From an uncultured bacterium (GTDB lineage: Bacteria > Cyanobacteriota > Vampirovibrionia > Gastranaerophilales > Gastranaerophilaceae), in contig CANENE010000010.1 in the NCBI GenBank assembly GCA_947428835.1, forward strand, positions 1 to 64,000: a stretch of DNA of 64,000 nt, written 5' to 3'. Within the stretch, counting starts at the first letter, position 1, and every line of letters begins with the position of its first letter. Positions 221 through 61,101 of the stretch are shown piece by piece. A model generated the notes under the pieces. The model was not told the origin of the DNA. It did not search any database and worked only from the letters and a program-made list of their open reading frames with translations. Position numbers and translations under genes: made by a program.

Positions 221-547
221 TTAACCATTTAGTGTATATAATTTTACAAATTTTTCCAAAAAGTCCACCTGGCTCTCGTTCGAACTTCTAACTTGAGAAA
301 TTATATTTTCAATCTTTTTGTGTCTTGAATCATCTGATGTAAAATCAAATAAATCTTTAACTTCGACGCCTAAAATATCAGCAATTTTAACTAAATTTTC
401 TTCTTTTGGAAACTGATGGCCATTTTCGATTCTTGTTAAATTAGACGGCTCCATATAAAGCTTTACTGCAAGAGTGCATTGCTTAATTCCTCTTGACTCT
501 CTAATTTCTTTTATTCTTTGTCCTACTTTTTTACTTAAAATGCCCAC
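221..547 (-). CDS. XRE-family small transcriptional regulator (copy 1)
   Basis: A 108-residue protein with a lambda-repressor-type helix-turn-helix over about residues 8-66: the GQRIKEIRESRGIKQ first helix, a recognition-helix region near EPSNLTRIENG, and a closing LGVEVKDLFDF. The remaining 40 residues are charged and may dimerise. The family normally binds short DNA repeats as a repressor. It is divergent from the prepilin-like gene starting at 692, across a 144-bp gap, so it probably controls that gene and itself. The same arrangement recurs at 58129-60903. Family assignment is firm; the target is inferred from position. Confidence 0.88.
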   Translation of the reverse strand: MGILSKKVGQRIKEIRESRGIKQCTLAVKLYMEPSNLTRIENGHQFPKEENLVKIADILGVEVKDLFDFTSDDSRHKKIENIISQVRSSNESQVDFLEKFVKLYTLNG

Positions 548-633
548 TTAATATCTCCAAATAAAATATATAGTAACTCTTATATATTTTCATGCTAATT
601 TGGAACAATTTTTCTTGACAATCTTTCTATATC

Positions 634-666
634 ATGACATGAATGTATAAAAAACTGTTATGACAT
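634..666. promoter_or_regulatory. Candidate operator: repeated ATGACAT between XRE gene and prepilin-like gene
   Basis: ATGACAT occurs at 634-640 and 660-666 on the + strand (period 26) in the divergent intergenic region. A TTGACA lies at 615-620, but no good -10 box at standard spacing is visible. The repeat is short and could be chance in AT-rich DNA. It is listed because a much clearer direct repeat sits at the equivalent place in the second cassette. Confidence 0.25.
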
Positions 667-691
667 AGAAATAAAATAGAAAATTATTGTT

Positions 692-2242
692 ATGAAAAAA
701 TTGAATGGATTCTCTCTTATTGAGTTATTAATAAGTTTAATCATTATCTCACTTTTAATCGGTGCATTTGCCCCGATTATCACCAAAAAACTCAAAGCAA
801 CTGATGTCACAGTCGGAAGTTTTGACAACAGAAAAGAAGAAACTGCGGAAAAAAATATTTCAAGACCCCCGACAAAAGAGGACTGTGACAAAGTTGATGC
901 TTTATTTATACCGAAAGAAATGAATGACGGACTAAAAGATATCTGTGTTACAAAATACAATGCAGGAGATGGCGGCATACCTTTAGCAGCTAATGTTACA
1001 AAACTATATTCAGGCGAAACATGCACAAAAAGCCCGTTTTGCTGTTGGCAAGGAAAGACGGCAGGTGAATGCACAGAAAACAGAAATGGAGCTTATTCCG
1101 GATGCAACAGAACAATTTGCCAATGGGAAGCGGGATATGAATCCTGTAACAGCTATTCTCCTTCAGGACTCAAATCAGCACATTGGAGACTGCCAAAGCG
1201 CGAAGAATACTCGGGATGGATGAATAATTTAAATACTTTAAATAATGGCAAAGGAGAAAACGGACTTCAAATTTGTTTTGGAACAACAAGCCTTATAGAA
1301 GGTGTTGATCAATGCAATGGCTACGGAAATCATTTCCTCGGTTCTTATGACACCCATGGCCGCTCCTATCAGCATTGGACATCAAGCCAATACAATGAAA
1401 GCAGATATTATAACACCTACTTTTTGCCGCCTAAATTCAGTTATGAAGGAGGCACATTACCAAATAACGCACCTTTGGCCGTAAGATGCGTACTTGATAC
1501 TGTAGAAGAAATACAAAAAAATCCGCAAGACTATTCGCCTAAAAATCAGGAAGACTGCGATAAAGTTGCACCATACACGATGTTTATAGACAAAAAATAC
1601 AATGACGGATTTCACAATGTCTGTGTCACAAAATACAATGTAGGAGACGCAGGAGGTCCTCCATATGGAACAGGTGTAATTCAAGGAGCAAGCGGGAAAT
1701 GTTCAGCTAAAAACTGTTGCTGGTCAAATACTCAAACAGCCAATGCAAGCTACTGCAGCGGAAAAAATGCTGATAGTGTATACGGTAGCTGCAAAAGAAC
1801 AGCCTGTCAATTTGAAGCCGCAAAACAAAGTTGTAAAGACTGGGCACCAAACGGAAAAAACAAAGGCTACTGGAGGCTTCCTAAAAAAGCTGAACTAGAC
1901 GGTTGGGTGCTTGCAGTACAGATGTATGATTTTAAAGGAGTACCAACAATTTCAAGAGGACTGGGTTCAAAAGGATTACAATTCTGCAATTATCACAGGT
2001 ATACTGTTAAAACCGGGGACCAGCAATGCTTTTATGGCTCATGCCCAGGTGCAGGCGAAGATGTTTGTCACAACAGCAATATATATGGATTTGACAATGG
2101 AATCAATTACATACTTGGTTACGGGTCAAACGAAACAGCAGATATAATAGCTACAATTCAAGAAAATCACACAATCAACGGCATTTATGCGTATTCGGTG
2201 CGTTGTGTATATGATGGAATTGACCACTCAGGCGATAGCTAA
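692..2242 (+). CDS. Prepilin-like cysteine-rich surface protein, two tandem DUF1566-like domains
   Basis: A 516-residue protein that opens with a class III (type IV prepilin) signal: basic MKKLNG, then FSLIELL and a hydrophobic helix to about residue 33. Prepilin peptidase would cut after Gly6, leaving Phe1 and Glu5 of the mature protein. The rest is two tandem domains of about 200 residues (about 60-270 and 285-510). Each has the same landmarks: an EDCDKV start, CVTKYN-GD-GG, a CCW motif, R-T-ICQ/ACQ, a WRLPK motif, GLQ-C and a closing VRCV. The WRLP-type motifs resemble DUF1566/Lcl-like surface domains. Many paired cysteines suggest disulfides outside the cytoplasm. No strong Shine-Dalgarno is visible; the start is set by the signal. 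It is a minor pseudopilin or pilus-exported adhesin by inference. A three-domain paralog lies at 58681-60903. Confidence 0.8.
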   Translation: MKKLNGFSLIELLISLIIISLLIGAFAPIITKKLKATDVTVGSFDNRKEETAEKNISRPPTKEDCDKVDALFIPKEMNDGLKDICVTKYNAGDGGIPLAANVTKLYSGETCTKSPFCCWQGKTAGECTENRNGAYSGCNRTICQWEAGYESCNSYSPSGLKSAHWRLPKREEYSGWMNNLNTLNNGKGENGLQICFGTTSLIEGVDQCNGYGNHFLGSYDTHGRSYQHWTSSQYNESRYYNTYFLPPKFSYEGGTLPNNAPLAVRCVLDTVEEIQKNPQDYSPKNQEDCDKVAPYTMFIDKKYNDGFHNVCVTKYNVGDAGGPPYGTGVIQGASGKCSAKNCCWSNTQTANASYCSGKNADSVYGSCKRTACQFEAAKQSCKDWAPNGKNKGYWRLPKKAELDGWVLAVQMYDFKGVPTISRGLGSKGLQFCNYHRYTVKTGDQQCFYGSCPGAGEDVCHNSNIYGFDNGINYILGYGSNETADIIATIQENHTINGIYAYSVRCVYDGIDHSGDS

Positions 2243-2282
2243 AACAAATTTGGAATTCTATAATAAAAAATTATAATCAGAT

Positions 2283-2307
2283 TTTCATGTTATTTTTTGT
2301 GTTAGAT
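2283..2307 (+). repeat. 3'-untranslated motif shared by both prepilin-like genes
   Basis: A 25-bp stretch (TTTCATGTTA...GTGTTAGAT) about 40 bp after the stop codon is repeated at 60918-60943 after the paralogous gene, with one T inserted in the T run. It sits immediately before the terminator in both places, so it was probably duplicated with the cassette or is a conserved 3'-UTR element. Confidence 0.7.
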
Positions 2308-2310
2308 TAC

Positions 2311-2345
2311 GAGGTTTTTTCTTTGTTGATTAAGCCTCTTTTTTT
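2311..2345 (+). terminator. Intrinsic terminator of the prepilin-like gene
   Basis: The stem GAGGTTT (2311-2317) pairs with AAGCCTC (2332-2338), allowing one G-U pair, and is followed by seven T residues. Confidence 0.65.
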
Positions 2346-2349
2346 ATCA

Positions 2350-2449
2350 CCTGTCACCTTTGAACTTATTTCATAATCTGGGCAGATTTGTGATATTGCA
2401 TCTATTTTTACATACCAACACCTCAGATGCTGAAACAAGTTCAGCATGA
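2350..2449. repeat. REP-type double-hairpin intergenic repeat (copy 1)
   Basis: The right half contains the palindrome GCTGAAACAAGTTCAGC. A 27-bp block at 2423-2449 is identical to 61075-61101. The left half (about 2355-2385) is a decayed version of the CACCCTGAACT...TTTCAGGG hairpin that is intact at 61010-61028. On the minus strand the right half reads LNLFQHLR, a peptide that I know as a common spurious translation of this repeat. It is a dispersed non-coding element, not a gene. Confidence 0.8.
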
Positions 2450-2528: not shown

Positions 2529-3560
2529 CTAATATATATATCCTGTCCAATCGTATTCAAAAGGAATTATGACTTTGCCTTTTTTATTTATAAATCCCCA
2601 TTTGCCATCTTGCATAGCAGCGAAAAGTCCATTTTTATATCCGCTTATTGCAAGGAATTCGGGTTTAATAATTTCATTTCCTTTTTTATCAATTACTCCG
2701 CATTGATATGATGTCTTACATACAGCTGCATATCCGTTTTCAAAAACATTTACGACTTCAAAACTGTCATCAAACTTGGTTTTTCCATCAGAATCTACAA
2801 AATGCCATTTTAAATCATTATCTTTTATAGCATAAGTATCTTTTTGAACATATTTAACTTCCATATTATTTAGAGGAATTATGACATTTTCTTTTTCATC
2901 TATTACACCGCAGTTTTTAATAACACCGAAATCATCAATCAATGTACAGGCAACGAATTTATTTTTTTGAGCAGGTTCAACAAAAGAATATCTAAACGGA
3001 ACAATGTTTTTCGCTTTCTTATTCATTACCCCGTATACACCATTATATCTTGTAACCGCCATGCCATTAATAAGAGACTGTGCTTCTTCAAAAACAGCAG
3101 GAATAACAACTTTTTCTTTTTTATCAATATATCCCCACTTGCCTTTTATTCGAACTGCGGCAAGTCCATCTTCATAAGGTTTTGCGGCTTGAAAACCATC
3201 TGAAAGTACTTTCCCGCGTTTATTAATAAATTTAAACTTTTGACCTGCTAAAACAAGAAAAGTTTTATTATCAGAAGACAAAATTTCATTATATTTAAAA
3301 GGAATGACGGTTTTTCCTCTTTTATTAATAACACCATATTTCGGCCCTTTGAGCGCTATTGCTAAACCATTTTTAAATTCGCCGGCCCAATCATAATCAA
3401 ATGAAATTATGGTTTTATTACTTTTGCTTACATAGCCCCATCTGCCATCTTTGCAGACGTTAATTAATGTTCTTGAATTCAAAAATATAAAATATCCTGC
3501 AGTCAACAAAACCAAAGCCAGCAAAAGTGAAGAAAATATAATAATTAATTTTTTTTTCAT
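2529..3560 (-). CDS. Membrane-anchored WG-repeat protein
   Basis: A 343-residue protein with an N-terminal basic MKKK and a single hydrophobic helix (about residues 4-28), then only WG repeats of the type KWGYIDKKEKVVIP, each about 35-45 residues, about seven or eight copies with variable preservation. The last repeat ends at the C-terminus. WG repeats form a beta-rich scaffold of unknown ligand. The protein is probably held in the inner membrane or secreted with the repeats outside. It starts 13 bp downstream of ddh on the same strand, so the two are probably co-transcribed, but no functional link is evident. Confidence 0.85.
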   Translation of the reverse strand: MKKKLIIIFSSLLLALVLLTAGYFIFLNSRTLINVCKDGRWGYVSKSNKTIISFDYDWAGEFKNGLAIALKGPKYGVINKRGKTVIPFKYNEILSSDNKTFLVLAGQKFKFINKRGKVLSDGFQAAKPYEDGLAAVRIKGKWGYIDKKEKVVIPAVFEEAQSLINGMAVTRYNGVYGVMNKKAKNIVPFRYSFVEPAQKNKFVACTLIDDFGVIKNCGVIDEKENVIIPLNNMEVKYVQKDTYAIKDNDLKWHFVDSDGKTKFDDSFEVVNVFENGYAAVCKTSYQCGVIDKKGNEIIKPEFLAISGYKNGLFAAMQDGKWGFINKKGKVIIPFEYDWTGYIY

Positions 3561-5144: not shown

Positions 5145-6356
5145 TTATCCCTGATAAGCCTGGAATAACGGAAGATATAAAGACAATCCCAAAAACGCAA
5201 CTACAATACCGATAAAAATCATCAATAACGGTTCAATCAATTTTGTAAAAGCATCAATTACAGCATCTAATTTTTTATCAATAAAACTTACACAATGGTA
5301 TAAAGAATCACCCAAGCGACCTGACTGCTCGCCTGTTGCAATCATAAATGTCAGCATCGCAGGAATCTGATTGACACTTTTTAGAGCAACTGACAGATGT
5401 GTACCTTGTTGCACTTTAGTTGCAACATTCATAATAGTTGTCTTTAAAACTGAATTGTCCATTGTCAAATTTGCAAGAAACAAGCAATCAACAATAGGAA
5501 TACCTGCCTCATATGATACTTGAAGCACCGCAATAAAGTTTGAGAAATTTGAATATCTCAAAAGCTCAGATAACATTGGAATTCTTAAAACCGCCCTGTC
5601 AATAACTCTTCTGATAACCGGGCTTTGCATTGCTTGGGAAATCAAAATTATACCCACAACGACACTTGCAAGACAGAAAAACCAATATTTTCTCATAAAA
5701 AGACCCATATTCATACAGGTCTTTGTAAGCCAAGGCAGCTCTTTTCCCATGTCATTAAACATTTCCGCAAATGCCGGAAATACAAAAACAAGCATAACAG
5801 TTACTGCAACTATTGCAAGACAAATTACAACACCGGGATATATTAAAGCACCGACAACTTTGCCTTTTGTGCTTTCTTGTTTCTTTAAAAGACCAAGCAT
5901 TCTAACTAAAGTCTTATCCAATTCCCCGGAATCTTCACCGGCTTTTACAAGACCAATATAAACTCTTCCGAATGTATTTCTATATTTTTCAAGAGTTTCA
6001 CCAAGTGTCGAACCCCCAATAATTTGTCTTCTAAATTCATGGGTAATTTTTCTTACTCTTTTGGAATCAGAATTTTGTTCAATAAATAATAGTGCTTCTA
6101 TTATCGGGATACCTGTCGAAGTAAGGATTTCAAGCGTTGAAGTAAAGTCTATTTTTTCCCTTAAGCTAAGGACGTTAGACTTATTTATACGATTTCTGTT
6201 TTTCTTATTTTTTTCAGCTTCAATATCCACAACAGAAGTCGGGATAAGATCCATTGCTTTGATTTTCTGCCTAGCCTCAGCAGGATCTGCCGCATCCACC
6301 TTGCCGGATACTGTAGTACTATTATTTCTTAATGCCGTATAGTTATATGTAGTCAT
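5145..6356 (-). CDS. pilC: Type IV pilus / type II secretion inner-membrane platform protein PilC (GspF)
   Basis: A 403-residue polytopic inner-membrane protein that couples the assembly ATPase to the pilus or pseudopilus base. After an N-terminal domain (about 1-65) come two T2SSF domains (about 70-190 and 275-395). They share the TSTGIPIIEAL / YEAGIPIVDCL and ATGEQSGRLGDSL / AGEDSGELDKTL motifs. Hydrophobic helices lie near residues 170-195, 218-240 and 370-398. The ATG shares its A with the TAA stop of pilB (TAATG), so translation is coupled. Length is typical of the family. Pilus versus type II secretion cannot be decided from this protein. Confidence 0.93.
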   Translation of the reverse strand: MTTYNYTALRNNSTTVSGKVDAADPAEARQKIKAMDLIPTSVVDIEAEKNKKNRNRINKSNVLSLREKIDFTSTLEILTSTGIPIIEALLFIEQNSDSKRVRKITHEFRRQIIGGSTLGETLEKYRNTFGRVYIGLVKAGEDSGELDKTLVRMLGLLKKQESTKGKVVGALIYPGVVICLAIVAVTVMLVFVFPAFAEMFNDMGKELPWLTKTCMNMGLFMRKYWFFCLASVVVGIILISQAMQSPVIRRVIDRAVLRIPMLSELLRYSNFSNFIAVLQVSYEAGIPIVDCLFLANLTMDNSVLKTTIMNVATKVQQGTHLSVALKSVNQIPAMLTFMIATGEQSGRLGDSLYHCVSFIDKKLDAVIDAFTKLIEPLLMIFIGIVVAFLGLSLYLPLFQAYQG

Positions 6357-8584
6357 TATTGTTCACTCGCCAAACCAAGTATTCTAACCTGTTCATCAAT
6401 AGAAGTGTTGCCTTCTAAGATATGTTTTAGACAAGACATTTTTAATGTCTTCATGCCCTGTTTGATTGCATAATCCTCAAGTTCGACATCATGAGCACGC
6501 TGCGCAATCATTTTTCTTATTTCATTGTTGATAACCAAAATTTCCAAAACTGCAAGACGACCAAGATAACCGGTATTCTTGCAATGAGGACATCCTTTTG
6601 GTCTATAAATTTTTGTTTGAGTCAATCTTTGAATTTCTATAGGATCACTCAATATTTTGCTTGCTTCTTCAGCTGTCGGATAGTAGGCTTCTTTGCAATC
6701 GGGACATAGTTTCTTCACAAGACGTTGCGCAATAATACCTGAAATTGTAGAAGATATCAAATAATCTTTTGCACCCATTTCAATTAAACGCGTAATCGTT
6801 GCAGCAGCTGAATTTGTGTGAATTGTTGACAAAACAAGGTGGCCTGTAAGCGAAGCCGAAATGGCAACTTCTAATGTTTCGTAGTCACGGATTTCACCAA
6901 TTAGAATAATATCAGGGTCTTGTCTTAAAATCGCACGCAATGAATTTGCAAATGTAATTCCTGCTTTTGTATTAATCGAAGATTGATTGACACCTTCCAA
7001 ACGGATTTCAACCGGATCTTCAATTGTTGTAATATTAACTGTATCTGAATTCACATATCTTAAAACAGAATATAAGGTTGTTGTTTTGCCGGAACCTGTA
7101 GGACCGGAAGTTAGAATAATGCCGTTTGGAGAAGCTACCAAATATCTGATTTTTCTTAAATCGTCAGCGCTGGCTCCCGGTATATCTATTCTATCTGCTT
7201 TTGCTTCTTTGGAATTCATTTGGGGAGCTAAAATACGGATAACCATCTTTTCTTTTCCTGATACAGGAAGAGTATTTACACGGAAATCCAAAGCTCTGTT
7301 TTTATATTTCATTGTAAATGAACCATCTTGAGCACGCCTATGCTCAGCGATATTCATTCTGGAAAGTACTTTAAATCTTGAAATCACAGCACTATCTGTT
7401 TTTGGAGGAATTTTAATCAATTCATGCAAAGAACCATCAATTCTAAGGCGAACCCTGTATCCCTGACTAAGTGGTTCAAGGTGCACGTCTGATGCACGCC
7501 TGTCTATAGCCATCGCAATAATTTTATTTGCAAGTTGCGAAACAGCCCCATCAGCATCCTGAACTTCTTGTTCAACCTGCTCCCAAAGTTCAGTGCCTGT
7601 TTCAAGATTATCATCATCAATTTGTTCTAATAATTCATTTGTGTCTTCTTCGTCTGTATTATAATAAGTATTTACAAAGTTTTCAAATTCAACATGGGTT
7701 ACAAGCATTACAGTCGGCTTCAAGCCAGTTTGGTAAACAATTTCGTTGATAACTTTTCTGTCGTTTGGATTAACCATACCAACTACAAGGGATTTTTCCG
7801 TCATACTCAACGGAATAACCTTGTTAACTTTAACAAAATCTTCAGGGAGAATTGATATAGCAGTAGGAAGTGCTTTTAATTGCTCTGCTGTCGCATATTT
7901 TAGACCCATTTGAGCACCCAATGCTTCTTTAAGGTCTTTTATTCTCACAAAACCCATTTTAACTAAAACTGAACCAAGGGGTATCCTTTGGGCTTTGCTT
8001 TCAGCTAACGCAATTTCAAGCTGTTTTTCAGTTATAAGCTGTTCTTCTATCAGTATTTGACCGAGCTTTTTAGTTTGAGGCGAATGCACTTTCGAAATAT
8101 CCGCTTTTGGTGCACCATCTTCTCCATATTCTTTTTTTGCCTGCGCAGGTTGAACATGTCTTTCCTGCAGCTGCGGTTCTGAAGATGAGTTAGAATACAT
8201 TTTTAAATTAACCTCACTAAAATTATTTTCAAGCTCACGATTATATTCAACTTCATTAATTGAAAACTGATCGTTCGAATCATCTACCAAAATATTATCA
8301 AAAACTTCAAATTCGGTAACTGTCCCATTTGAATTAATAGATTTACATAAAACATCAAAGCTGTTTTTATTTAAGTATATAAATTCGATTTTGTTTTGAT
8401 AAATTTCATTAATACATTGGGCAGCAACCCCTTTGTTGCAATTGGGATGAATTGCAACAAAGAAAATGTCGTTTTGAATATTGATAGGAATAAATCCTGC
8501 GCTTTTTGTTTTATTTAAGTCAAATTTGGATAATATATCCAAATTGACTTTTTTTATTAACTTTTTAATTAAATTGCTGTCCAT
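6356..8584 (-). CDS. pilB: Type IV pilus / type II secretion assembly ATPase with MshEN domain
   Basis: The ATPase that drives pilin polymerisation. The first ATG (8584) gives 742 residues; a GTG at 8620 would add 12 but has no better ribosome site and overlaps the secretin stop. Order of parts: a divergent N-terminal region of about 170 residues; an MshEN/GspE-N domain (KLGQILIEEQLITEKQLEIAL onward) of the kind that can bind cyclic di-GMP; then the ATPase with Walker A GPTGSGKTTTLY, Asp box and Walker B (DPDIILIGEIRD), a His box (TGHLVLSTIHTN), and the zinc tetracysteine CPDC...CPHC. All catalytic motifs are intact. It is larger than typical PilB (about 570) because of the N-terminal extension. 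Confidence 0.93.
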   Translation of the reverse strand: MDSNLIKKLIKKVNLDILSKFDLNKTKSAGFIPINIQNDIFFVAIHPNCNKGVAAQCINEIYQNKIEFIYLNKNSFDVLCKSINSNGTVTEFEVFDNILVDDSNDQFSINEVEYNRELENNFSEVNLKMYSNSSSEPQLQERHVQPAQAKKEYGEDGAPKADISKVHSPQTKKLGQILIEEQLITEKQLEIALAESKAQRIPLGSVLVKMGFVRIKDLKEALGAQMGLKYATAEQLKALPTAISILPEDFVKVNKVIPLSMTEKSLVVGMVNPNDRKVINEIVYQTGLKPTVMLVTHVEFENFVNTYYNTDEEDTNELLEQIDDDNLETGTELWEQVEQEVQDADGAVSQLANKIIAMAIDRRASDVHLEPLSQGYRVRLRIDGSLHELIKIPPKTDSAVISRFKVLSRMNIAEHRRAQDGSFTMKYKNRALDFRVNTLPVSGKEKMVIRILAPQMNSKEAKADRIDIPGASADDLRKIRYLVASPNGIILTSGPTGSGKTTTLYSVLRYVNSDTVNITTIEDPVEIRLEGVNQSSINTKAGITFANSLRAILRQDPDIILIGEIRDYETLEVAISASLTGHLVLSTIHTNSAAATITRLIEMGAKDYLISSTISGIIAQRLVKKLCPDCKEAYYPTAEEASKILSDPIEIQRLTQTKIYRPKGCPHCKNTGYLGRLAVLEILVINNEIRKMIAQRAHDVELEDYAIKQGMKTLKMSCLKHILEGNTSIDEQVRILGLASEQ

Positions 8585-8600
8585 TGTTTGTTTTTTGTTT

Positions 8601-10481
8601 CTATAGGTCGTATTGTCCACTCATTGCATCTGCGGTATCTTTTACAATATGAGGAGTAACTACGATTACAAGCTCTTCTCTTGCTGTTCTTGTAGTATTA
8701 CCTCTAAAGAAAACACCTATAAAAGGAAGATCTGATAAGAAAGGCATTTTTCTTACTGTTTGGGTTTCGTTTTCTTTAATCAAACCTGCAAGAACAAGAG
8801 TTTCGCCATCTTTTATTCTTATGTTTTTAAGTTCTAAGTCACGTCTTTGCAATAATGTTGCAGCAAGCTCTTCTTCATTATTTTCATTTTTAGAAGTCAA
8901 CTGTTGTTTGATTGTTGCAAACTCAGGAGTAATATTCATTGAAACATATCCATCCGGAGATATAAAAGGTACTATTTCAATTTTTAAACCTTCGTCAGAA
9001 CCTATATCATAAGTCTTTTGAGTAGCAGCAGTAATTGCATTTGATGATTGAAGAACCTGGCTTGTAACAGATTTTACATAGTCAGAAGTCATATCTATAA
9101 CTGCTTTTCTACCACTTGTAACCATAATTTTAGGGTTAGTTAAAACTCTTCCGTTGCCGTTTTCAACAAGATATTTTAATCTGTATACCAAAGCTTTGTT
9201 ATTTGATTTTGTAACAATTCTTTCGCTTGTGCTTGAACCTTCTCCTGAAGTAGTTGTTTCATTTACTTTATATTGGCTACCCCATACGAAAAGCGGGTTT
9301 TCACTTGAGGTTTGTAAGCCCGAATCAGGAGTGAATGATAATGAAACAAACGGCGTCCATAAGTTCCATTCATTTGAAAATTCTTTTGAACCAGATTCGT
9401 TAAGTTCAATAACAGAAAGCTCAACATAAGCCATAAGTTGTTTTTTATCATGATCTTTGATAAATTGTTTAATTACTTCAACTTGCTCAACAGAACCGCC
9501 ATAAACACCAATTTGACCCAATTCAGGGAAGTATGTAACGGTCATTGGATTGGTTTTAAATGTAGCAAGTCCTTCTTCAGTACCTGAAGAACTACCGCTT
9601 TCAAGTCTATCGCGACAAGCAATTGTGCCGCCGCCTAAAATAACTTCATCACTTTCAGCATTTGTACTTGAAGAAGTGCTAACGGTAGAGCTATTACCAT
9701 TTTCAGAAGTATAGAATAAAGAATCACAAATTAATGCAGCCATTTCTTTAGGAGTAGTATGGCTTACTTTAAATGTGTTTACCATTGGTTTAGTATCTAA
9801 AACCGGAAGTACTCTTTTGATTGCAATAACATCCTGCTGAGTACCAAAAATAACAATTTGATTTGTTCTTGGATTTGCTGTTACAACAGGTTTTGAAGAT
9901 AAACCAAAGATATTAGATTTAAATAAATTTTCATTTAAAAATTCTGCAACGTTTTCAGAATTTACATATCTTACAGGAAGCACTGTCATTGTTTGTCTTG
10001 TGTAAGCTACATCTTTTGCAGCGTCAAGAGTCATAACAGTTAAGGTGTTACCATCTACGGTATATGTTAACTGGGAAGATTTAAATATAACGGCAAAAGC
10101 ATCATTTACACTGATATTATTCAAATCAAGTGTAATTTTACCATCAACCGATTCATCAAAAACAATATTAACACCCGCTTTTTGAGCAAGCATTCTAAGT
10201 GCCTGTTTTAAATCAGAATCACGCAAGGACAAATTAACCTTTGCATTTGATTTTGTAATTGGAGCACTGCTATCAAGTCTTAATGTTGTTTCAAAGCCTT
10301 TTGCATCATCAGATGTTAAATTTAAGATGCTTTCAGTGCTTGTGTAAGCCATAGTAGGTGTTACACTATCTAAATATGAAGCATTATCATTTTCTAAGCC
10401 AAATACTGTTGTAGTTAAAAGGCTTAAACTCAAAAGCGTTAAGCAAAATTTATTTACGCTTGCAGATTTTAATTTTAGCAT
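8601..10481 (-). CDS. Outer-membrane secretin (PilQ/GspD family)
   Basis: A 626-residue protein with a signal peptide (cut near residue 28, TTTVFG). It has a STN/N0 domain (about 75-130, NVNL-type SLRDSDLKQALRMLAQKAG), an N1-like domain with the TNQIVIFGTQQDV motif, a Ser/Thr/Gly-rich insert, and the secretin beta-domain (about 420-615) with VLTNPKIMVTSGRKA and the closing ELVIVVTPHIV. It forms the outer-membrane channel for the pilus or secreted pseudopilins. Its stop is followed 17 bp later by the pilB ATG. No C-terminal pilotin-binding extension is evident. Its presence is direct evidence for an outer membrane. Confidence 0.93.
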   Translation of the reverse strand: MLKLKSASVNKFCLTLLSLSLLTTTVFGLENDNASYLDSVTPTMAYTSTESILNLTSDDAKGFETTLRLDSSAPITKSNAKVNLSLRDSDLKQALRMLAQKAGVNIVFDESVDGKITLDLNNISVNDAFAVIFKSSQLTYTVDGNTLTVMTLDAAKDVAYTRQTMTVLPVRYVNSENVAEFLNENLFKSNIFGLSSKPVVTANPRTNQIVIFGTQQDVIAIKRVLPVLDTKPMVNTFKVSHTTPKEMAALICDSLFYTSENGNSSTVSTSSSTNAESDEVILGGGTIACRDRLESGSSSGTEEGLATFKTNPMTVTYFPELGQIGVYGGSVEQVEVIKQFIKDHDKKQLMAYVELSVIELNESGSKEFSNEWNLWTPFVSLSFTPDSGLQTSSENPLFVWGSQYKVNETTTSGEGSSTSERIVTKSNNKALVYRLKYLVENGNGRVLTNPKIMVTSGRKAVIDMTSDYVKSVTSQVLQSSNAITAATQKTYDIGSDEGLKIEIVPFISPDGYVSMNITPEFATIKQQLTSKNENNEEELAATLLQRRDLELKNIRIKDGETLVLAGLIKENETQTVRKMPFLSDLPFIGVFFRGNTTRTAREELVIVVTPHIVKDTADAMSGQYDL

Positions 10482-16641: not shown

Positions 16642-16968
16642 TTAATAATTTTTTATGAATTTTATAAACTTATAAACAAGTTCAAGTTTAGACCTGTCTT
16701 TTTTAATTTGATTTATGGCATCATTAATATATACAATTAAATCTTTTTCGTCTTGCAAATAGTCATTTGAAAAAAGCTCGGTCAAATCAACACCTAAAGC
16801 AAGCACTATTTTTTCAAGCGTCTCCGCTTTTGGATAATTTACACCTAATTCTATTGCACTTAAATTTCTTGGAGAAATTTCAATTATTTCAGAAAATTGT
16901 TCTTGAGTTAAATTTTTGCTTTTTCTCAATCTTTTAATTTTTTCGCCGAGTTCTTTTTTTATATTCAC
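16642..16968 (-). CDS. XRE-family small transcriptional regulator (second of three)
   Basis: 108 residues. The helix-turn-helix covers about 7-64 (GEKIKRLRKSKNLTQEQFSEIIEIS, then RNLSAIELGVNYPKAETLEKI). The helical C-terminal tail ends in KLELVYKFIKFIKNY, close in layout to the C-terminus of the regulator at 221-547 (VDFLEKFVKLYTLNG), so these two are likely paralogs. It is divergent from the coiled-coil gene at 17170 and may regulate it. No enzymatic or phage genes accompany it. Confidence 0.88.
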   Translation of the reverse strand: MNIKKELGEKIKRLRKSKNLTQEQFSEIIEISPRNLSAIELGVNYPKAETLEKIVLALGVDLTELFSNDYLQDEKDLIVYINDAINQIKKDRSKLELVYKFIKFIKNY

Positions 16969-17047: not shown

Positions 17048-17169
17048 CCTGAAATGATGCGCTATATCTTTTTTTCTTTATTTTTAGATGTATTATATAG
17101 ATTTTTTTAGCAAATTTTATTTTTCTTATGTTTTAATAAACATGTATAACATTATTATTGGAGAATATT

Positions 17170-18153
17170 ATGCAGCAAATAAATCCGACAACAAGCACAT
17201 ACAATAAAACAATTGAACAAAAAGAAGAAAATAAAAAAAGCAAAATCAAAGAAAAAATAGAACAAATCCCAGATAGCAGCAAAAAAATTATTTTAGGATT
17301 GAATATTTTAAGTGTGGCAGCTATTGCAGGTATTGCAATTTATAAGCATAAAAATCCATCGACAGCTCAAAATATGCTGCAAGATTCCATTGATGCAACT
17401 TCGAAAGCAATGCAGCAAACAAATCAGGCTCCCGCAAAAGAAACATCAGAAATAATCAATAATATATCAGATACTACCTCACAATCAAGAATAAAAGTAA
17501 CTGCCGCAGATGTAAGAAAAAAACAAATAGAAAAGAAGGTTTTAAAGCAAGAAGAAAAAGCAAAACAAAGTGCACAAAAAATAACCAAAAATCAAAATAT
17601 CAATAGAGAAAATAATGAAATTTCAAATTTGGTAAATGAAACCATCAAAGATTACAAAATCGCAAAAAATATAAGACAGGGAATAAAAAATTCAAATGAT
17701 ATTTCGCAAATACAAGAAAAAATAGATATCGCAAACAATATGGCAAAACAAGCACAGGAAAATGCCAAAAGCCTCGAAAAATATAAAACCCAAGGAACGC
17801 ACAAGCAAAGACTTTATGCTCAAAGAGCGCACAATAAGGCAATTGCTGCTCAAATTGAAGCCAAAAAGACAAAAGCAAAAGGACTCTTTAGACAAAACAT
17901 TATAAAGCAAGAGCAAAAAAGAAAATCTCAAAATGCTATAGATGTAACCCAAAACCCAAATTATCTAAAAAACATTGAAAAACAGAAACAAAATGCAATA
18001 AAAAGACAATCTAAAAAAGAGGTTGAAAGAATAGAAAAAAAATATTTAGGAAAAAATTCAAAACAGCTGATTGCTATGATAAATTCAGGCAGAATTAAAG
18101 GGCAGGAAGAAGAGGTTATTTTAAATATTCTAAATAAAAGAAAAAAGATATAG
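17170..18153 (+). CDS. Lys/Gln-rich coiled-coil protein with one membrane helix
   Basis: 327 residues starting at the ATG at 17170; GGAG at 17160-17163 fits it, while the upstream TTG (17158) overlaps that ribosome site. One hydrophobic helix at about 42-60 (IILGLNILSVAAIAGIAIY) follows a charged N-terminus. The rest is strongly Lys, Gln, Asn and Ala rich with long helical stretches, probably coiled coil. I know no family for it. Its neighbour is a divergent XRE regulator. Confidence 0.7.
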   Translation: MQQINPTTSTYNKTIEQKEENKKSKIKEKIEQIPDSSKKIILGLNILSVAAIAGIAIYKHKNPSTAQNMLQDSIDATSKAMQQTNQAPAKETSEIINNISDTTSQSRIKVTAADVRKKQIEKKVLKQEEKAKQSAQKITKNQNINRENNEISNLVNETIKDYKIAKNIRQGIKNSNDISQIQEKIDIANNMAKQAQENAKSLEKYKTQGTHKQRLYAQRAHNKAIAAQIEAKKTKAKGLFRQNIIKQEQKRKSQNAIDVTQNPNYLKNIEKQKQNAIKRQSKKEVERIEKKYLGKNSKQLIAMINSGRIKGQEEEVILNILNKRKKI

Positions 18154-25504: not shown

Positions 25505-25610
25505 TTTCTAAAATAATTCTCCTTTCTATTGAACTTTGCTAAAACTAAAAAAGTTTTGCAAGTGATGTACCTACAAAACAGTTCAAATAAAAGTATATTA
25601 TCTTTCTTGA

Positions 25611-25664
25611 ACCTGGATTGGAAATTAAGATTTCTTTTAAAAAATCACCAACCGTCTCGGGTAC
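25611..25664 (-). promoter_or_regulatory. L10 leader (autoregulatory RNA element)
   Basis: On the minus strand the leader reads CCCGAGACGGTTGGTGA (+ strand 25646-25662). This fits the CCnAGACnGnnGG core of the L10 leader in other bacteria. GGTTGG (25648-25653) can pair with CCAATC (25616-25621). It lies about 110 bp upstream of rplJ, between its promoter and start codon, as expected for binding by the L10-L12 complex. The match is from memory of the motif, not from a covariance search. Confidence 0.7.
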
Positions 25665-25671
25665 ATATACA

Positions 25672-25699
25672 ATAATAGTTAATCAATATTTTATGTCAA
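25672..25699 (-). promoter_or_regulatory. Promoter of rplJ-rplL
   Basis: On the minus strand, TTGACA (25699-25694) and TATTAT (25677-25672) are 16 bp apart. This puts the start of transcription just upstream of the L10 leader core. Confidence 0.65.
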
Positions 25700-52281: not shown

Positions 52282-55200
52282 TTAGTCTTCATCAGCATAT
52301 TCATCGTCGTCTGATGTATATGTTGCTTGAGCATCTTCGCCGACATCAATCTTAGCAGCTGCTGAAAGTGTGGCAGCCATTCTGTCTGCGCTGGCGTCGC
52401 CTACAACTGATACCATTGAAGTACCTTGTTGTTCTCTAGGAATCTTAACGTTGTTAATCATAGAGTCGATGTCAGGATCAACACCAGAGGTTCCACCATC
52501 TACGTTTGGAGGTACAATTGGAAGTGGATCACAAGTTTGACCTTCTTTTTCATAAACTAACAAGAACTGATCGCCGCCTTTGTTTGGATTGTAAACTATA
52601 GTGTGGCTGCCATAGTTAGATGTAACTTCGCCATCTTCACCTTCGGTATCGGTTCTTTCGAAGTGTTCGTCATATACAAAACCGTCAGGAGTAGATTCTA
52701 AATCAGAGCTAGCGTCTTGGTTAAATCCGCCTTTGTCTCTAATTTCAATATAACCTTTAGCATTGTCATTGGTAACAGTGCCTTCAAAATGAGCCAACTG
52801 ATCAGGAGTCAATTCAACTGCTGCAGCTGATATATTTGTATTTTCATCGATAAATAATTTATCTGTAACAATTCTAGATACAGCGATTGATTTACCATCT
52901 GCTGATTTTAAGTGAACTTCAGGTCCTTGGCTAGCATTAATATCAGAATCCCATAAGTGGTTACCATCAGCATCAACATTTTCAGCTAACAAGTCAATAC
53001 CTGCACCATCAGCATTTTTCAAGTTAAGAGTAATGCTTCCTTTGTTTGGATTTGCAGCATCTTTAACTGTTTGAGCTTTAGCGATAAGTTTTGAACCATT
53101 TAAGTCTAAATGTGTTGAAGCATTTACAGGTGTTACACGATTAACATCAACTGTCTGTGGGAATGTATGAGTTCCAGCAGCCATATCAGCATCAAATGTA
53201 CCTGTTACGTCAGCTGTTGTAATATCACCTTTTGCGATAATTGTTGTAGTTGCATCATTATCAACAATTGTTAAGTTGTTCATAATGACATCGCTGCCTG
53301 ATGTAATATTGTTTTGAGGACCTTCAAGTGTTGAATTAACAAATTGAACATCACCTGTTGTAACAATATTGTTAGAAGCAGAAGCAACGTAATCAACATT
53401 TACTGATTTTAATGAAGCAGCATTGAAGTTGTTGTTTACTGCATCAAATTTCAATCTGCCGTCATAAGTTAATGAAGCCATTTGTCCTGCAGTTGCATTT
53501 TCTGCTGTAATATCACCTGCAGTAGCAGTGAAATTAATATTATTTGAAGCTGTAAACGAAACATCACTTGTAATATAGCCGGTGCCTTCTTCATCAGCAA
53601 AAGTAATGTCGTTTAATGAAGTTGCATTAATATCATTAACAGCAACGATATTTGAACCGTTTCTAGCTTCTAAGGAACCTGCTGCAGCAGAAATTGTAAC
53701 ATTGTGAGCAGAATCAATTGAAGCACCGTCAAGCTTAGCATTGCCTGTTGTAGCAGTCAATGTAATATCACCGCTTACATCACCTGTTGTTGTACCTAAG
53801 GTAGAATTTACTACATTAACATCAGTATTTGCAGTAAATGCAATAGTGTCTTTTGCTTGTACATTAGAGTTATTTTTAGCAGTAACGCTTCCTTGAGTAG
53901 ATTTAACATTTACATTATTAGCGTTTTTGCCTGTAGCTGTAGTTGTAAAGTTGATTTTTCTTTGAGTGCCATCATCAACTAATTTACCGTCAGCATCTCT
54001 GTCAAAAGCAATTGAAACATCAGCTGTTTTCATAGTGGCATTATCCATTGTGAAGTTGCCGTTTGTTTCAAGAATAACATCAGGACTTACATTTCCATCA
54101 GCAAGTTTTTGAGTAAATGTTGAATCACCTTTAACAGTAACGTTATTTAAACCTGTAGTTCCGTCACCGTAGAAAGAAATTGTATTGTAAGCTAAGTTTG
54201 AATTATCAATTGTTGAATTTGCACCTTTGATTGATAATTTTCCGTTGCTTGAGCGAATAAAGCTATTTTTAACATTTACGTCTGCACGTAATGAATTATC
54301 AGCAGAAGCAACAGAGTGAAGATTTACATCACCTCTAGAAGAAAGTGTAGAATTTGTAACATTAACACCATCATAACCAACAATATTAATGTGGTTTAAT
54401 TTATCTTCAACAAGTGAATTTGAAGATTCAATTAATGAATCTGTAATATTGACTTCGTTACTTGCAATAATATCAGCATCTGATTCAGCAAGAACTTGTG
54501 AATTCGTCATATCAATATTGCCATTGTATGCATATAATTGCACAATACCTGCGTGCATATTGTCAGCTTGCGAACCTTTAGAACCGGCAGAATAGATTAA
54601 TGAATCTTTAACCTTTAATCCATCACCAGCTTTGATGATAACTTGACCACCAACTTGTTTATCGGTATTAGTAGTTTCACCTGCATAAGTAACTTTTGTA
54701 TTGGTACTTTGAATACGTGAACCTTCGATATCTACATCATGAGAACCATCAATCAATACGATACCCGATTCATTATCTACAAGTTTTGTACCTTTAACAA
54801 CGGCATTTTTAATTTTAATATTAGAGCCGTCTGCTTTTGATTTATTAACAATATCGACAACACCGGATTGGATACCAACTTGGTCGGCACCTAAACCTGA
54901 ATTATCAATATTTATATTTCTAACTACATCAGTTCTGCTGTCATCAGCAACTTTTGTGGATGAAGAATAACCGTGAGCAAGATAAGTAAATGTGGCACCA
55001 TCTGCAGTAATTAACTGTACGTTACCATATGAGTTCTTAGCTCCACCTGCTAAATAGTTGTAGTTAGTACCTGTTTTAATAATTGAATCTTTATAATCAA
55101 TATTGTCTGCAATAAATGCAGTTGTTTTATTTGTATTCCACGCATCTACTTCAGTAGTACTTCCATTAACAAATTTGTTAAAATGAGTACCGTTTAAAGT

Positions 55201-55872: not shown

Positions 55873-56263
55873 TGTAATGTTCCCTTTCATATAACAATTA
55901 TCAAAATCCATATGCTTATACAATTAATAAAAACCACGTAAATTTAAAAATTAAGCAAATTGACAAATAAAATTTACAAAATTTTACAATCGTGTCGTTA
56001 AATCATATTATCAAAATCAAAAAAAAATTTCAAGCAAAAATTGCAAAGTATATACTATATATATAAAAATTTAACAGAATGTAACATGACGCAATAAAAA
56101 AGTTTTTTAGTTTTTTATTTATAGTATTATAAAAATCATCAATTTAATTTATTGTCATATTAAATTAAATGCATTAAGATAATATTGCGCAATATAATAT
56201 TTTAATTGTGCGACATTATTCTCCAGAAAAAATACTATATATTATATAAAGGAATATAAGAAA
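55873..56263. promoter_or_regulatory. Divergent tpsA/tpsB promoter region with palindrome
   Basis: 391 bases, very AT-rich, no coding frame. A perfect 14-bp palindrome, ATATTGCGCAATAT, lies at 56182-56195, about 70 bp upstream of tpsB. AGTATATACT at about 56048 is a second, shorter palindrome nearer tpsA. AAAGGA at 56248-56253 is the ribosome site for the GTG at 56264. I cannot place the -35/-10 boxes with confidence. Confidence 0.4.
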
Positions 56264-58128: not shown

Positions 58129-58461
58129 TTATATGCTTTTTAGCAAACCATCTTCAACAAGCATATTTCTAACATCGCTTAAAATATCACTTCTTATATT
58201 ATTATATATGTTTTTATAATTAATATTATCGGAAGTTTTTTCTTTAATATTATATATAAATGTTTCACCCTTATTTGCAATTAACCAGTTTAAATTCACA
58301 TCAAAATTTTGAACAAGCTTTTCTAAAAATTCAAATGAAGGTTTTCTGTCACCTCTTTCATAACTCGTATATGCACGATATGTGGTCCCGGTTTGATTTG
58401 CCATATCTTCTTGGGAAAGTTTAAGACTTTTCCTGATTTCCTTGAGTTTTAAGCTGTACAT
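58129..58461 (-). CDS. XRE-family small transcriptional regulator (third)
   Basis: 110 residues. The helix-turn-helix spans about 4-60 (LKEIRKSLKLSQEDMANQTG, then YRAYTSYERGDRKPSFEFLEKL), followed by a helical tail with a DILSDVRNML end. It is less like the other two XRE proteins in its C-terminus. It is divergent from the three-domain prepilin-like gene, and a 22-bp-period direct repeat sits between them. It probably represses that gene and possibly itself. Confidence 0.9.
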   Translation of the reverse strand: MYSLKLKEIRKSLKLSQEDMANQTGTTYRAYTSYERGDRKPSFEFLEKLVQNFDVNLNWLIANKGETFIYNIKEKTSDNINYKNIYNNIRSDILSDVRNMLVEDGLLKSI

Positions 58462-58494
58462 AAATTTAGTCCAATTGTATTAAATTTTGTAAAT

Positions 58495-58537
58495 ATTTAC
58501 CAACATGTGTTGTTATATTTACCATTATGTGTATAAT
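58495..58537 (+). promoter_or_regulatory. Promoter of prepilin-like gene with direct-repeat operator
   Basis: ATTTACCAACATGTGT (58495-58510) is repeated as ATTTACCATTATGTGT (58517-58532), 14 of 16 identical, period 22 (two helical turns). TTGTTA (58510-58515) and TATAAT (58532-58537) are 16 bp apart, and the second repeat abuts the -10 box. Binding of a repressor would block polymerase. The spacing and placement fit the neighbouring XRE protein. Confidence 0.65.
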
Positions 58538-58546
58538 ATTTATTAT

Positions 58547-58574
58547 AGGCAATTAGCTACTACTCTCATTGCCT
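58547..58574 (+). promoter_or_regulatory. 5'-leader stem-loop of prepilin-like mRNA
   Basis: AGGCAAT (58547-58553) pairs with ATTGCCT (58568-58574), just past the predicted transcription start. It begins an unusually long leader of about 135 bases. It may protect the 5' end or regulate translation; no riboswitch class is recognised. Confidence 0.4.
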
Positions 58575-58680
58575 GTATATTTTTAACTATAACATATTAG
58601 CACAGATTTTGGCAAAATTTGCCTTATTTTTTGTGCTAAAAATTAAATCTAACAAACAAAAAAAGGATAAAACAGATTTT

Positions 58681-60903
58681 ATGAAAAATTTAACACAAAA
58701 TCTTTTGCCATTTGATGGCAATGTTAAGCTGCAAGCTTTTTCTTTAATTGAATTATTAATTACTTTGATTATTGTCTCGCTTCTAATCGGAGCTTTTAGC
58801 CCTATTATCACAAAGAAATTGAAAGCAAGCGATATTGTTGTCGGCTCCTTTGGTAAAGGTGATAGCGAAGGTAACGCCTATGGAACAATAAAAAGACCAA
58901 TCACAGAAGAAGACTGCAAGAACTGGAAGGCTTTATTTATCCCTGCATCTATGAATGATGGCATCAAAAATGTTTGTGTTACTAAATTTAATGTCGGAGA
59001 TGGAGGAATACCGATTGCAAAAAGCGTAAAAGCACTAAAAGCAGGTCAAACGTGCCCCGATGGTGCTTCTTGTTGCTGGCAGGGAATAACAAACGGTTAC
59101 TATACAACAAATAAAAATAATAGCACATATAGTACGCAAACCAGGACCAACTGCAATTTTAATGCTTCCAAATTAAGCTGTAGCAGTTATGCACCTGCAG
59201 GTTCAAAAGCAGGCGATTGGCGTCTTCCAAAAGACACGGAAATAAGCGGATGGTTTGATAATATGGCAAGTTTAAATAACGGTAAAGGTGAAAATGGACT
59301 GCAGCTGTGCAGGTCTACTTCGCCCAATTTAAATAATGTTGATATATGTTATCCGCAAAATCTTAATGCCTGCCTGCCAAATAACTGCTGGACTATGCAT
59401 TTATGGCTGGAACCGCAGATAAGCGATGGCAATGTTTATAGTGCGTATATGTGGCTTTATGGTTCATATACAAAACAACAACTTATAAAAGGCAAAACAA
59501 TTGATTCAGGTGCTTTTTCAGCGCGTTGCGTCATAGATTCGGTTACCGAAACGACAGAGCAGCAAATCGAGCTTAAAAATAACGCTCCAAAATCACAAGC
59601 TGATTGTGATAAATTCAATGCTTTATTTATTCCTGCAAATACGAACGATGGCACCAATAATATCTGTGTAACCAAATGGAATATGGGAGATGCCGGACTT
59701 CCCTTGGCTTCCGGCACGCAAATTGTTAATGTCGGACAAACCTGCACAAGCTACGGAAACTGCTGCTGGAAAGGGCAGACTGCAGAAATGTATTTAACAG
59801 GAAGAAATTCAGGAAGCACTTATAGCACACAAAATAGAACAGTGTGTCATTTAATACCTGCACAAAATGCCTGCTATAACTATGCACCAAATGGAACCAA
59901 AGCAGGCGACTGGAGACTTCCGAATATATCTGAAACACAAGGATGGGGCAAAAATATCGCTCTATTAAACAACAACAAAGGTGAAAACGGACTGCAATTA
60001 TGCAGCGCTTACGCAACGGACGGTGTAGACAGATGCTCCTGGCTGTATAATTCTTGCAAAAATGAAACGACAAGTTTTGTTAAAAATAATAACTGTCATC
60101 CGTATTTGTTGAAAACCGCTACAATAATAAGTGCACCTAATTCCTATGCAAGTACAGGTTTTGTAGGGTTTGGAGCTATAGGTACGGATAATTATTTCAC
60201 GGTAACTGCCCACTCTTTGGAAGGCGATTTTGCAGCATCGGTCAGATGCGTCTACGACGGCTTAAATAGTACACAAATTGTTCAAAAACCTGCAGAAAAA
60301 GACCCCGACCCTGAACAATCCCAAAAAACCTGTAACCCTAAAACTGTTACATTGAGTGATACAAATATGAAAGTAACCCAATATAATATGGGAGATGATC
60401 CTGCTTGTCCAAGAAGTGTAATAGAGGGGATGTCAGGGGTGACTTTTGTTCCGGTTGGAACCAATTGCAGCAGTGAACTTTGTTGCTGGTATGGAGTAAC
60501 TGCTGCTGGAAACACATGTACTAATGTAGGTGGCATATATTCAGGCTGCAATAGGACCGTCTGTAAGTGGTATGCAGCAAAAAAGATTTGTGAATCAATA
60601 GGGGATGGCTGGAAGCTTCCTGATACATCAAATTCTATGGCTAATTGGTACCCAAATAATTCTACAGCTGCGACGGGCTTGATGCTATGCGACCACTCGA
60701 CGTCTAGTGCTTCAGCTTCCAAATGTGCTCCTATAGCAAGCTGCCCCGGTACTTACAGCGGTGGCTGCAGTCCAAATGGCTTATGGGCTCGCGGTGACAG
60801 TGGCAGCAATGCTGTGCAGTGCAGGTACTTATACGATGGCAGTTGGATTGTGGAAACGTGTGAAAAGTCGGTTGCCTTTGGCGTGCGTTGCACGAAAGAA
60901 TAG
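58681..60903 (+). CDS. Prepilin-like cysteine-rich surface protein, three tandem domains
   Basis: 740 residues from the ATG at 58681; an earlier in-frame start is not needed by the signal. A longer leader (MKNLTQNLLPFDGNVKLQA) precedes FSLIELL and its hydrophobic helix. The residue before the cut is Ala instead of Gly. Three domains follow. Domains 1 and 2 (about 75-275 and 290-545) share EEDC/ADCDK-, CVTK-N-GD-G, CCW, WRLPK and GLQLC with the protein at 692-2242. Domain 3 (about 570-740) is shorter but keeps CCWYG, NRTVC, WKLPD, GLMLC and VRC. Function is inferred to be a surface pilin-like or pilus-exported binding protein. Confidence 0.8.
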   Translation: MKNLTQNLLPFDGNVKLQAFSLIELLITLIIVSLLIGAFSPIITKKLKASDIVVGSFGKGDSEGNAYGTIKRPITEEDCKNWKALFIPASMNDGIKNVCVTKFNVGDGGIPIAKSVKALKAGQTCPDGASCCWQGITNGYYTTNKNNSTYSTQTRTNCNFNASKLSCSSYAPAGSKAGDWRLPKDTEISGWFDNMASLNNGKGENGLQLCRSTSPNLNNVDICYPQNLNACLPNNCWTMHLWLEPQISDGNVYSAYMWLYGSYTKQQLIKGKTIDSGAFSARCVIDSVTETTEQQIELKNNAPKSQADCDKFNALFIPANTNDGTNNICVTKWNMGDAGLPLASGTQIVNVGQTCTSYGNCCWKGQTAEMYLTGRNSGSTYSTQNRTVCHLIPAQNACYNYAPNGTKAGDWRLPNISETQGWGKNIALLNNNKGENGLQLCSAYATDGVDRCSWLYNSCKNETTSFVKNNNCHPYLLKTATIISAPNSYASTGFVGFGAIGTDNYFTVTAHSLEGDFAASVRCVYDGLNSTQIVQKPAEKDPDPEQSQKTCNPKTVTLSDTNMKVTQYNMGDDPACPRSVIEGMSGVTFVPVGTNCSSELCCWYGVTAAGNTCTNVGGIYSGCNRTVCKWYAAKKICESIGDGWKLPDTSNSMANWYPNNSTAATGLMLCDHSTSSASASKCAPIASCPGTYSGGCSPNGLWARGDSGSNAVQCRYLYDGSWIVETCEKSVAFGVRCTKE

Positions 60904-60917
60904 ATTATAAAAACAGG

Positions 60918-60943
60918 TTTCATGTTATTTTTTTGTGTTAGAT
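60918..60943 (+). repeat. 3'-untranslated motif shared by both prepilin-like genes (copy 2)
   Basis: Matches 2283-2307 with one extra T. It lies 15 bp after the stop codon and runs straight into the terminator hairpin, as in copy 1. Confidence 0.7.
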
Positions 60944-60970
60944 GGTGGCAATTTTCGCCACCCTTTTTTT
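60944..60970 (+). terminator. Intrinsic terminator of the three-domain prepilin-like gene
   Basis: GGTGGC (60944-60949) pairs with GCCACC (60957-60962), followed by a run of eight T residues. Confidence 0.8.
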
Positions 60971-61005: not shown

Positions 61006-61101
61006 GTCACCCTGAACTCGTTTCAGGGTCTAACCAAGTTCGGGAGTTGTGTCTGTTTTTTACACCTCAACACATCAGATGCTGAAACAAGTTCAGCATG
61101 A
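61006..61101. repeat. REP-type double-hairpin intergenic repeat (copy 2)
   Basis: The left hairpin is CCCTGAACTCGTTTCAGGG (61010-61028), intact. The right hairpin is GCTGAAACAAGTTCAGC within a 27-bp block (61075-61101) identical to 2423-2449. The two hairpins flank a less conserved middle. It has the form of the palindromic TGAA/TTCA intergenic repeats common in several bacterial groups. Confidence 0.8.

Follow-up and report, generated by a model that had tools for sequence, protein, structure and literature searches.

Two gene blocks

We describe here two gene blocks near the two ends of a 64,000-nucleotide stretch of DNA (the window: positions 1 to 64,000 of contig CANENE010000010.1, assembly GCA_947428835.1) from an uncultured bacterium of the Gastranaerophilaceae (Cyanobacteriota; Vampirovibrionia; Gastranaerophilales). 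Each block consists of a small XRE-type regulator gene and, divergent from it, a large gene for a putative surface protein with a type IV prepilin-like N-terminus, followed by a motif in the 3' untranslated region (3'UTR), a terminator-like hairpin and a dispersed repeat resembling repetitive extragenic palindromes (REP-like) (Table 1). An earlier note on this DNA had pointed out both blocks, and our analysis confirmed that they have the same order and orientation and differ in their number of Cys-rich domains, two in block 1 and three in block 2. The motif common to the 3' ends of both blocks is TTTCATGTTATTTTTTGTGTTAGAT; the hairpin was scored for the block 2 copy and recognised by eye in block 1.

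Table 1. Features of the two blocks and of the export gene cluster in the window
Feature	Position	Strand	Remarks
XRE/HTH_3 regulator, block 1	221..547	-	108 aa; PF01381 9.2e-10, 38.9 bits (cut-off 23); divergent from prepilin-like gene
Divergent promoter region, pair 1	548..691	.	putative operator; lowest p of an inverted repeat 0.02, which loses significance across all regions compared; conserved promoter footprints seen in other XRE orthologue groups
Prepilin-type surface protein, block 1	692..2242	+	516 aa; two Cys-rich domains with predicted C-type-lectin fold
Family-specific 3'UTR motif, block 1	2283..2307	+	terminator-like hairpin after motif
REP-like dispersed repeat, block 1	2424..2449	+	among 34 near-copies in genome
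XRE/HTH_3 regulator, block 2	58129..58461	-	110 aa; PF01381 1.8e-14, 53.9 bits (cut-off 23); divergent from prepilin-like gene
Divergent promoter region, pair 2	58462..58680	.	putative operator
Prepilin-type surface protein, block 2	58681..60903	+	740 aa; three Cys-rich domains
Conversion-like tract in block 2 prepilin gene	60260..60670	+	96% identity to paralogue C6:67749-69917
C-terminal part of block 2 gene, homologous to variable region of diversity-generating retroelement	60690..60903	+	68-73% DNA identity to other copies
Family-specific 3'UTR motif, block 2	60918..60943	+	
Terminator-like hairpin with T run, block 2	60944..60962	+	
REP-like dispersed repeat, block 2	61076..61101	+	
Type IV pilus/type II-like export genes (T2SSF, assembly ATPase with MshEN domain, secretin)	5145..10481	-	

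The surface proteins

The prepilin N-terminus (class III signal) was recognised in both large proteins by TIGR02532, with 20.7 bits in block 1 and 17.5 bits in block 2 (cut-off 16.3). Pfam N_methyl (PF07963) gave 26.4 bits with the block 1 protein, above its cut-off of 21.2, and 18.8 bits with the block 2 protein, below it. The nearest sequence family is Pfam Lcl_C, with 24.1 bits (block 1, E = 4.5e-5) and 19.9 bits, both below the cut-off of 34.9; the curated score of FISUMP (TIGR02145) was not reached (16.8 versus 41.65 bits), and a sequence-profile search for solved structures returned no match.

AlphaFold2 modelled domain 3 of the block 2 gene and domain 1 of the block 1 gene with predicted local distance difference test (pLDDT) values of 91.3 and 93.5, respectively. 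For both models the closest solved folds are the C-terminal domains of Bdellovibrio Bd2740 (8oks) and Legionella Lcl (8q4e), with Z scores of 11.0 and 10.2 for the first model and 9.6 and 8.5 for the second over about 100 residues, followed by many C-type lectins; the Foldseek E-values of the fold matches are only 0.01-0.08. The models suggest that the Cys-rich domains share the C-type-lectin fold of adhesive domains. Judged from the presence of the genes, the secretin, assembly ATPase and T2SSF protein encoded in the same window are a possible export machine for the surface proteins.

A genome-wide family paired with regulators

The genome is a 1.80-Mb metagenome-assembled genome (MAG) in 24 contigs, 97.7% complete. 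A search of it with the block 1 prepilin-like protein yielded 105 matches, and in the DNA around them we found at least 41 family genes with an N-terminal start, in addition to partial genes at contig ends; this copy number is a lower bound, many contig ends falling inside members and some genes being cut. Complete family genes mostly encode one to four Cys-rich domains, and the total over those genes that have a start is 85. The unit that the earlier note had seen twice is thus present at least 41 times.

Directly upstream of 37 of the 41 genes lies a divergent XRE gene (HTH_3), the family XREs being about 75-140 amino acids long. The regulator at C17:9527 is of the MerR type (PF13411, 9e-17), C6:67407 and C8:2805 encode short, possible helix-turn-helix proteins with weak or no similarity to such domains, and C11:61496 is a fragment at a contig end, where the opposite gene, identified by eye, is tyrosyl-tRNA synthetase-like. 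More than half of the 67 HTH_3 matches in the genome belong to surface-protein family loci. Counted as 37 of 40, the pairing compares with about 4% expected by chance (binomial probability about 1e-49, assuming a gene number of about 1,700).

The pairing extends to other genomes. In seven genomes of the same genus, in regions picked by prepilin matches only, 26 of 28 family genes are paired with an XRE, and in other MAGs, by title mostly Gastranaerophilales from animal guts, 12 of 18, a count that omits one further open reading frame, an ordinary pilin look-alike without Cys-rich domains. One of these other-MAG loci has a MerR regulator resembling that at C17. The earlier note had named as its test whether XRE and prepilin genes are rarely adjacent elsewhere; the opposite was found, and its idea of a repeating unit of XRE plus surface protein is borne out by the genome-wide family and by the pairing in other genomes.

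The XRE genes could also encode phage repressors or antitoxins, their neighbours being selfish or defence partners; in favour of this, NCBIfam models of RstR repressors and of antitoxins are matched weakly. All of these matches, however, stay below the curated cut-offs (NF041951 at most 53.9 of 80 bits, TIGR03070 at most 26 of 71.65 bits), the pairing is old and nearly universal, and in this genome as in another MAG a MerR-type regulator occupies the place of the XRE at one locus. We regard such an origin as very improbable.

The 3' ends of the genes are also characteristic. The motif TTATTT-N(0-7)-GTGTTAGAT has 32 matches in the genome and none in a reversed control, and nearly all of them lie just 3' of the stop codons of family genes, so that the motif is almost family-specific. 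Related versions follow family genes in G002, G003, G016, G017 and G018. No consensus RNA structure was predicted for the motif, the hairpins varying in sequence between copies and aligning poorly; it may serve as an RNA-level signal or may mark the end of an exchanged unit. The REP-like palindrome is a general dispersed repeat, about half of whose 34 near-copies, counted from coordinates, lie 140-370 bp downstream of family genes.

Regulators and surface proteins evolve in opposite ways

When 63 pairs were compared, the closest relative of the XRE was found in another genome for 40, and the closest relative of the prepilin in its own genome for 50. No two family XREs within one genome are 60% identical, whereas 25 cross-genome XRE pairs reach at least 60% identity, with a maximum of 96%. 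In 20 of these 25 orthologous pairs the prepilin has a closer relative within the same genome than the prepilin at the orthologous locus. Of the five exceptions, three are pairs among the close relatives G016, G018 and G186. An example is the XRE at C2:3197-3442, which is 93% identical to an XRE of G018 while the prepilins of the two loci are only 32% identical.

When the divergent regions of orthologous XRE genes were aligned, a promoter block proved to be conserved; the conservation is lost within the 5'UTR or where the prepilin gene starts, most clearly in the C2:3197 group. The promoter regions are kept across species, not between loci; regulator and promoter behave as a fixed address. Flanking genes are syntenic in two XRE orthologue groups, and in the other groups no matching flank was found within the stretches taken. 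Since the promoter regions are conserved and locus-specific, we consider it likely, from sequence comparison, that expression of the prepilin genes is XRE-controlled.

The history favoured by the earlier note would be plain duplication of the whole cassette, the XRE-prepilin unit spreading as one piece and the regulators then diverging fast. Such a history would account for the uniform order and orientation at all loci and for the dispersed REP-like repeats near many copies, but it does not explain why XREs stay apart within a genome and keep orthologues and promoters across species. Because XRE and promoter are orthologous across species and the prepilins are closer within the genome, the cassettes have not mainly spread by whole duplication; we find this part of the earlier note unsupported and consider plain cassette duplication improbable.

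How the prepilin genes have become alike within a genome is indicated by the block 2 gene. Between window positions 60260 and 60670 several 60-bp blocks are 98-100% identical to the paralogue at C6:67749-69917; outside this tract the identity of the two genes is mostly 35-65%, although shorter stretches at the N-terminus and at the domain starts are better preserved. The tract is conversion-like, that is, it has the appearance that gene conversion would give, and the comparisons suggest that the coding part of the prepilin genes is probably homogenised within each genome by gene conversion between paralogues.

The homogenisation might alternatively be only apparent, brought about by a turnover (birth and death) of prepilin genes at XRE sites that is particular to each species, new genes being inserted beside old regulators by a mobile or site-specific process with the 3' motif as one end. 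Homology between the loci of XRE orthologues does stop abruptly within the 5'UTR, and the unit does end with the 3' motif. Moreover, on the minus strand at C3:81100-81300 a copy of the promoter region of a family gene (the retroelement target described below) leads straight into the 3' motif and hairpin. A gene is missing from this place, and the locus seems to have been emptied, as by a deletion. Against this explanation, neither an integrase nor an insertion sequence was identified at family loci, though no systematic search was made, and an internal identity tract of 400 bp fits gene conversion better than insertion of a whole gene. Birth and death at fixed sites therefore seems to us unlikely, if the least so of the explanations set against conversion between paralogues.

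A diversity-generating retroelement with a target in the family

At C3:76.8-80.4 kb the genome contains a diversity-generating retroelement (DGR) with one clear reverse transcriptase (RT; C3:77178-78350, PF00078 1.3e-15 and 4.4e-15) and, adjoining it, the accessory protein bAvd (PF22296, 48.8 bits, cut-off 40). The target beside the RT is an XRE-paired family gene that has the variable region (VR) as its C-terminus. A template-like repeat beside the RT differs from the VR at 15-16 of 209 bp, the copies lying at C3:76.8 and C3:79.0 kb, and two further VR copies at the ends of contigs C6 and C17 are nearly identical outside scattered codons. Recent targets number only about three.

The copy beside the RT was considered as a plain template and rejected, its differences not being at its adenines. 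Genome G186 of the same genus has a cleaner arrangement with two tandem templates rich in AAC/AAT, from which the VR differs at A in six of seven sites, and in other family genomes 13 of 14, 19 of 20 and 15 of 15 differences are at adenines. The codons that vary in the present genome fall preferentially where the G186 template has AAY codons (12 of 17 versus 9 of 50, p=1.3e-4). Because of this coincidence and of the adenine specificity of its relatives, the DGR appears to be real and of adenine-specific ancestry, and the template of this genome looks mutated or mis-assembled. In G186 the two tandem template repeats, on the reverse strand at G186:C12 2013-2665, have identical spacers and lie behind one DGR RT.

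Relatives of the RT, 47-64% identical, were found in 25 of 191 family genomes; in the 19 same-genus genomes tested, a DGR RT is present in G005, G015, G016 and G186. In family genes of G013 the last domain is hypervariable, and the RCVSEL end behind it and the 3' flank are identical from gene to gene; no DGR RT was found in the G013 assembly despite these DGR-like C-termini.

The block 2 gene was rejected as a live DGR target, since besides its moderate DNA identity to the other copies it shows third-position and many non-adenine differences. Its C-terminus would rather be an older, divergent relative of the DGR variable domain than a recent target of this template.

Alternatively, the family proteins might sense ligands or bind nutrients at the cell surface, each being induced by its own ligand via its XRE, with neither adhesion nor random switching. 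One regulator per gene and the great diversity of the regulators would suit such a role, and a lectin-like fold could bind glycans. The short XREs, however, leave little room for a ligand domain, and the action of a DGR on the family suits recognition of changing partners. We judge this role unlikely, slightly more so than gene birth and death at XRE sites.

Other genes in the window

Block 2 is adjoined by a two-partner secretion (TPS) pair composed of a TPS-domain exoprotein (52282-55923, minus strand; PF05860, 2e-14) and its ShlB/FhaC-type transporter (56264-58036, plus strand; PF03865, 1e-27), and beside block 1 lies a gene (2529-3560, minus strand) for a protein with eight WG repeats (PF14903, 3e-56). 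A further XRE gene (16642-16968, minus strand) is divergent from 17158-18150 (plus strand), which encodes a Lys/Gln-rich, likely coiled-coil protein of 331 aa that does not resemble prepilins and matches no Pfam family. The sole Rfam match in the window is a ribosomal protein L10 leader (RF00557) at 25538-25679 on the minus strand.

Proposed function of the repertoire

We propose that both blocks belong to a repertoire of "one regulator, one adhesin" loci spread over the whole genome, an explanation that, taken as a whole, we consider fairly probable. At each locus a dedicated small helix-turn-helix regulator, almost always an XRE, is divergent from the large surface-protein gene and would most likely repress, perhaps bistably switch, the divergent promoter, so that a cell would show a subset of coats. 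The type IV prepilin-type N-terminus would be processed, the type IV pilus/type II machinery would display the protein, and the one to four Cys-rich domains with their predicted C-type-lectin fold would bind ligands, presumably in the gut. Regulator and promoter would remain the fixed address across species, the coding part together with the 3'UTR motif would be homogenised within the genome, probably by conversion between paralogues, and in some members a resident DGR may diversify, or may once have diversified, the last domain.

Several observations weigh against this proposal. The Lcl_C and N_methyl scores are partly under the Pfam cut-offs. In most members the Phe in the class III signal is preceded by Ala rather than Gly, the less usual of the two residues for prepilin peptidases. 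Palindromic operators were not enriched over shuffled sequences, an inverted repeat at p<0.05 being present in five of 37 intergenic regions. The differences between the template-position copy of this genome and the VR are mostly at T residues, which leaves no clean adenine template, and the assembly in 24 contigs has many of its breaks within family members.

Going further, the regulator-promoter addresses might drive interchangeable coats that are overwritten by recombination and seeded by the DGR; cells would then differ in their coats, and the repertoire would be renewed with the control wiring unchanged. This extension we put forward tentatively, as clearly more doubtful than the repertoire itself.

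Comparison with known systems

Variable surface repertoires of bacteria usually consist of silent cassettes, invertible promoters or slipped repeats. A large PilE-like paralogous family occurs in Elusimicrobium minutum, with dozens of genes sharing only the prepilin N-terminus; we know of no paired regulators for it.

In Neisseria gonorrhoeae, pilin antigenic variation likewise rewrites a prepilin-type protein by recombination between copies (gene conversion), but there one expressed locus is served by silent donors, whereas here each copy apparently has its own promoter and regulator (PMC12871193). The DGR of Treponema denticola, as far as the available text of the report goes, also has several remote surface-protein targets with a C-type-lectin-like variable domain; these targets are lipoproteins and few, with no dedicated regulator reported, whereas the present proteins are prepilin-type with dozens of paralogues, about three of them recent targets (PMC4891356). 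The C-terminal domains of Legionella Lcl (8q4e) and Bdellovibrio Bd2740 (8oks), the best fold matches of both domain models, are single domains of otherwise different fibres, whereas here the Cys-rich domains stand in tandem behind a prepilin N-terminus. Expanded XRE regulators tied to adhesion are known from Caulobacter, where XRE paralogues control the holdfast adhesin; those form a related set and regulate shared genes in trans, whereas the XREs described here are mutually divergent, one per surface-protein gene (PMC10688885).

A literature search retrieved no paper joining DGRs and Melainabacteria and none on a divergent XRE with a multigene surface family, and the available text of papers covering both Gastranaerophilales and pilin does not describe the surface family. 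The components are each known; in the literature searched, a large surface family with a conserved regulator for nearly every gene and with coding parts homogenised within genomes seems undescribed.

Significance

In a gut bacterium with a genome of 1.8 Mb, at least 41 loci are given over to putative surface proteins that have their own conserved regulators; together these loci encode 85 or more predicted lectin-fold domains. This makes it testable whether, in one genome, the control wiring stays constant while the exposed proteins are rewritten, and it connects a DGR with an extensive family of surface proteins in the lineage that is the non-photosynthetic sister of the Cyanobacteria. The repertoire is a candidate explanation for the attachment of uncultured Gastranaerophilales in animal guts and hints at a general way in which a renewable set of surface coats may be kept.
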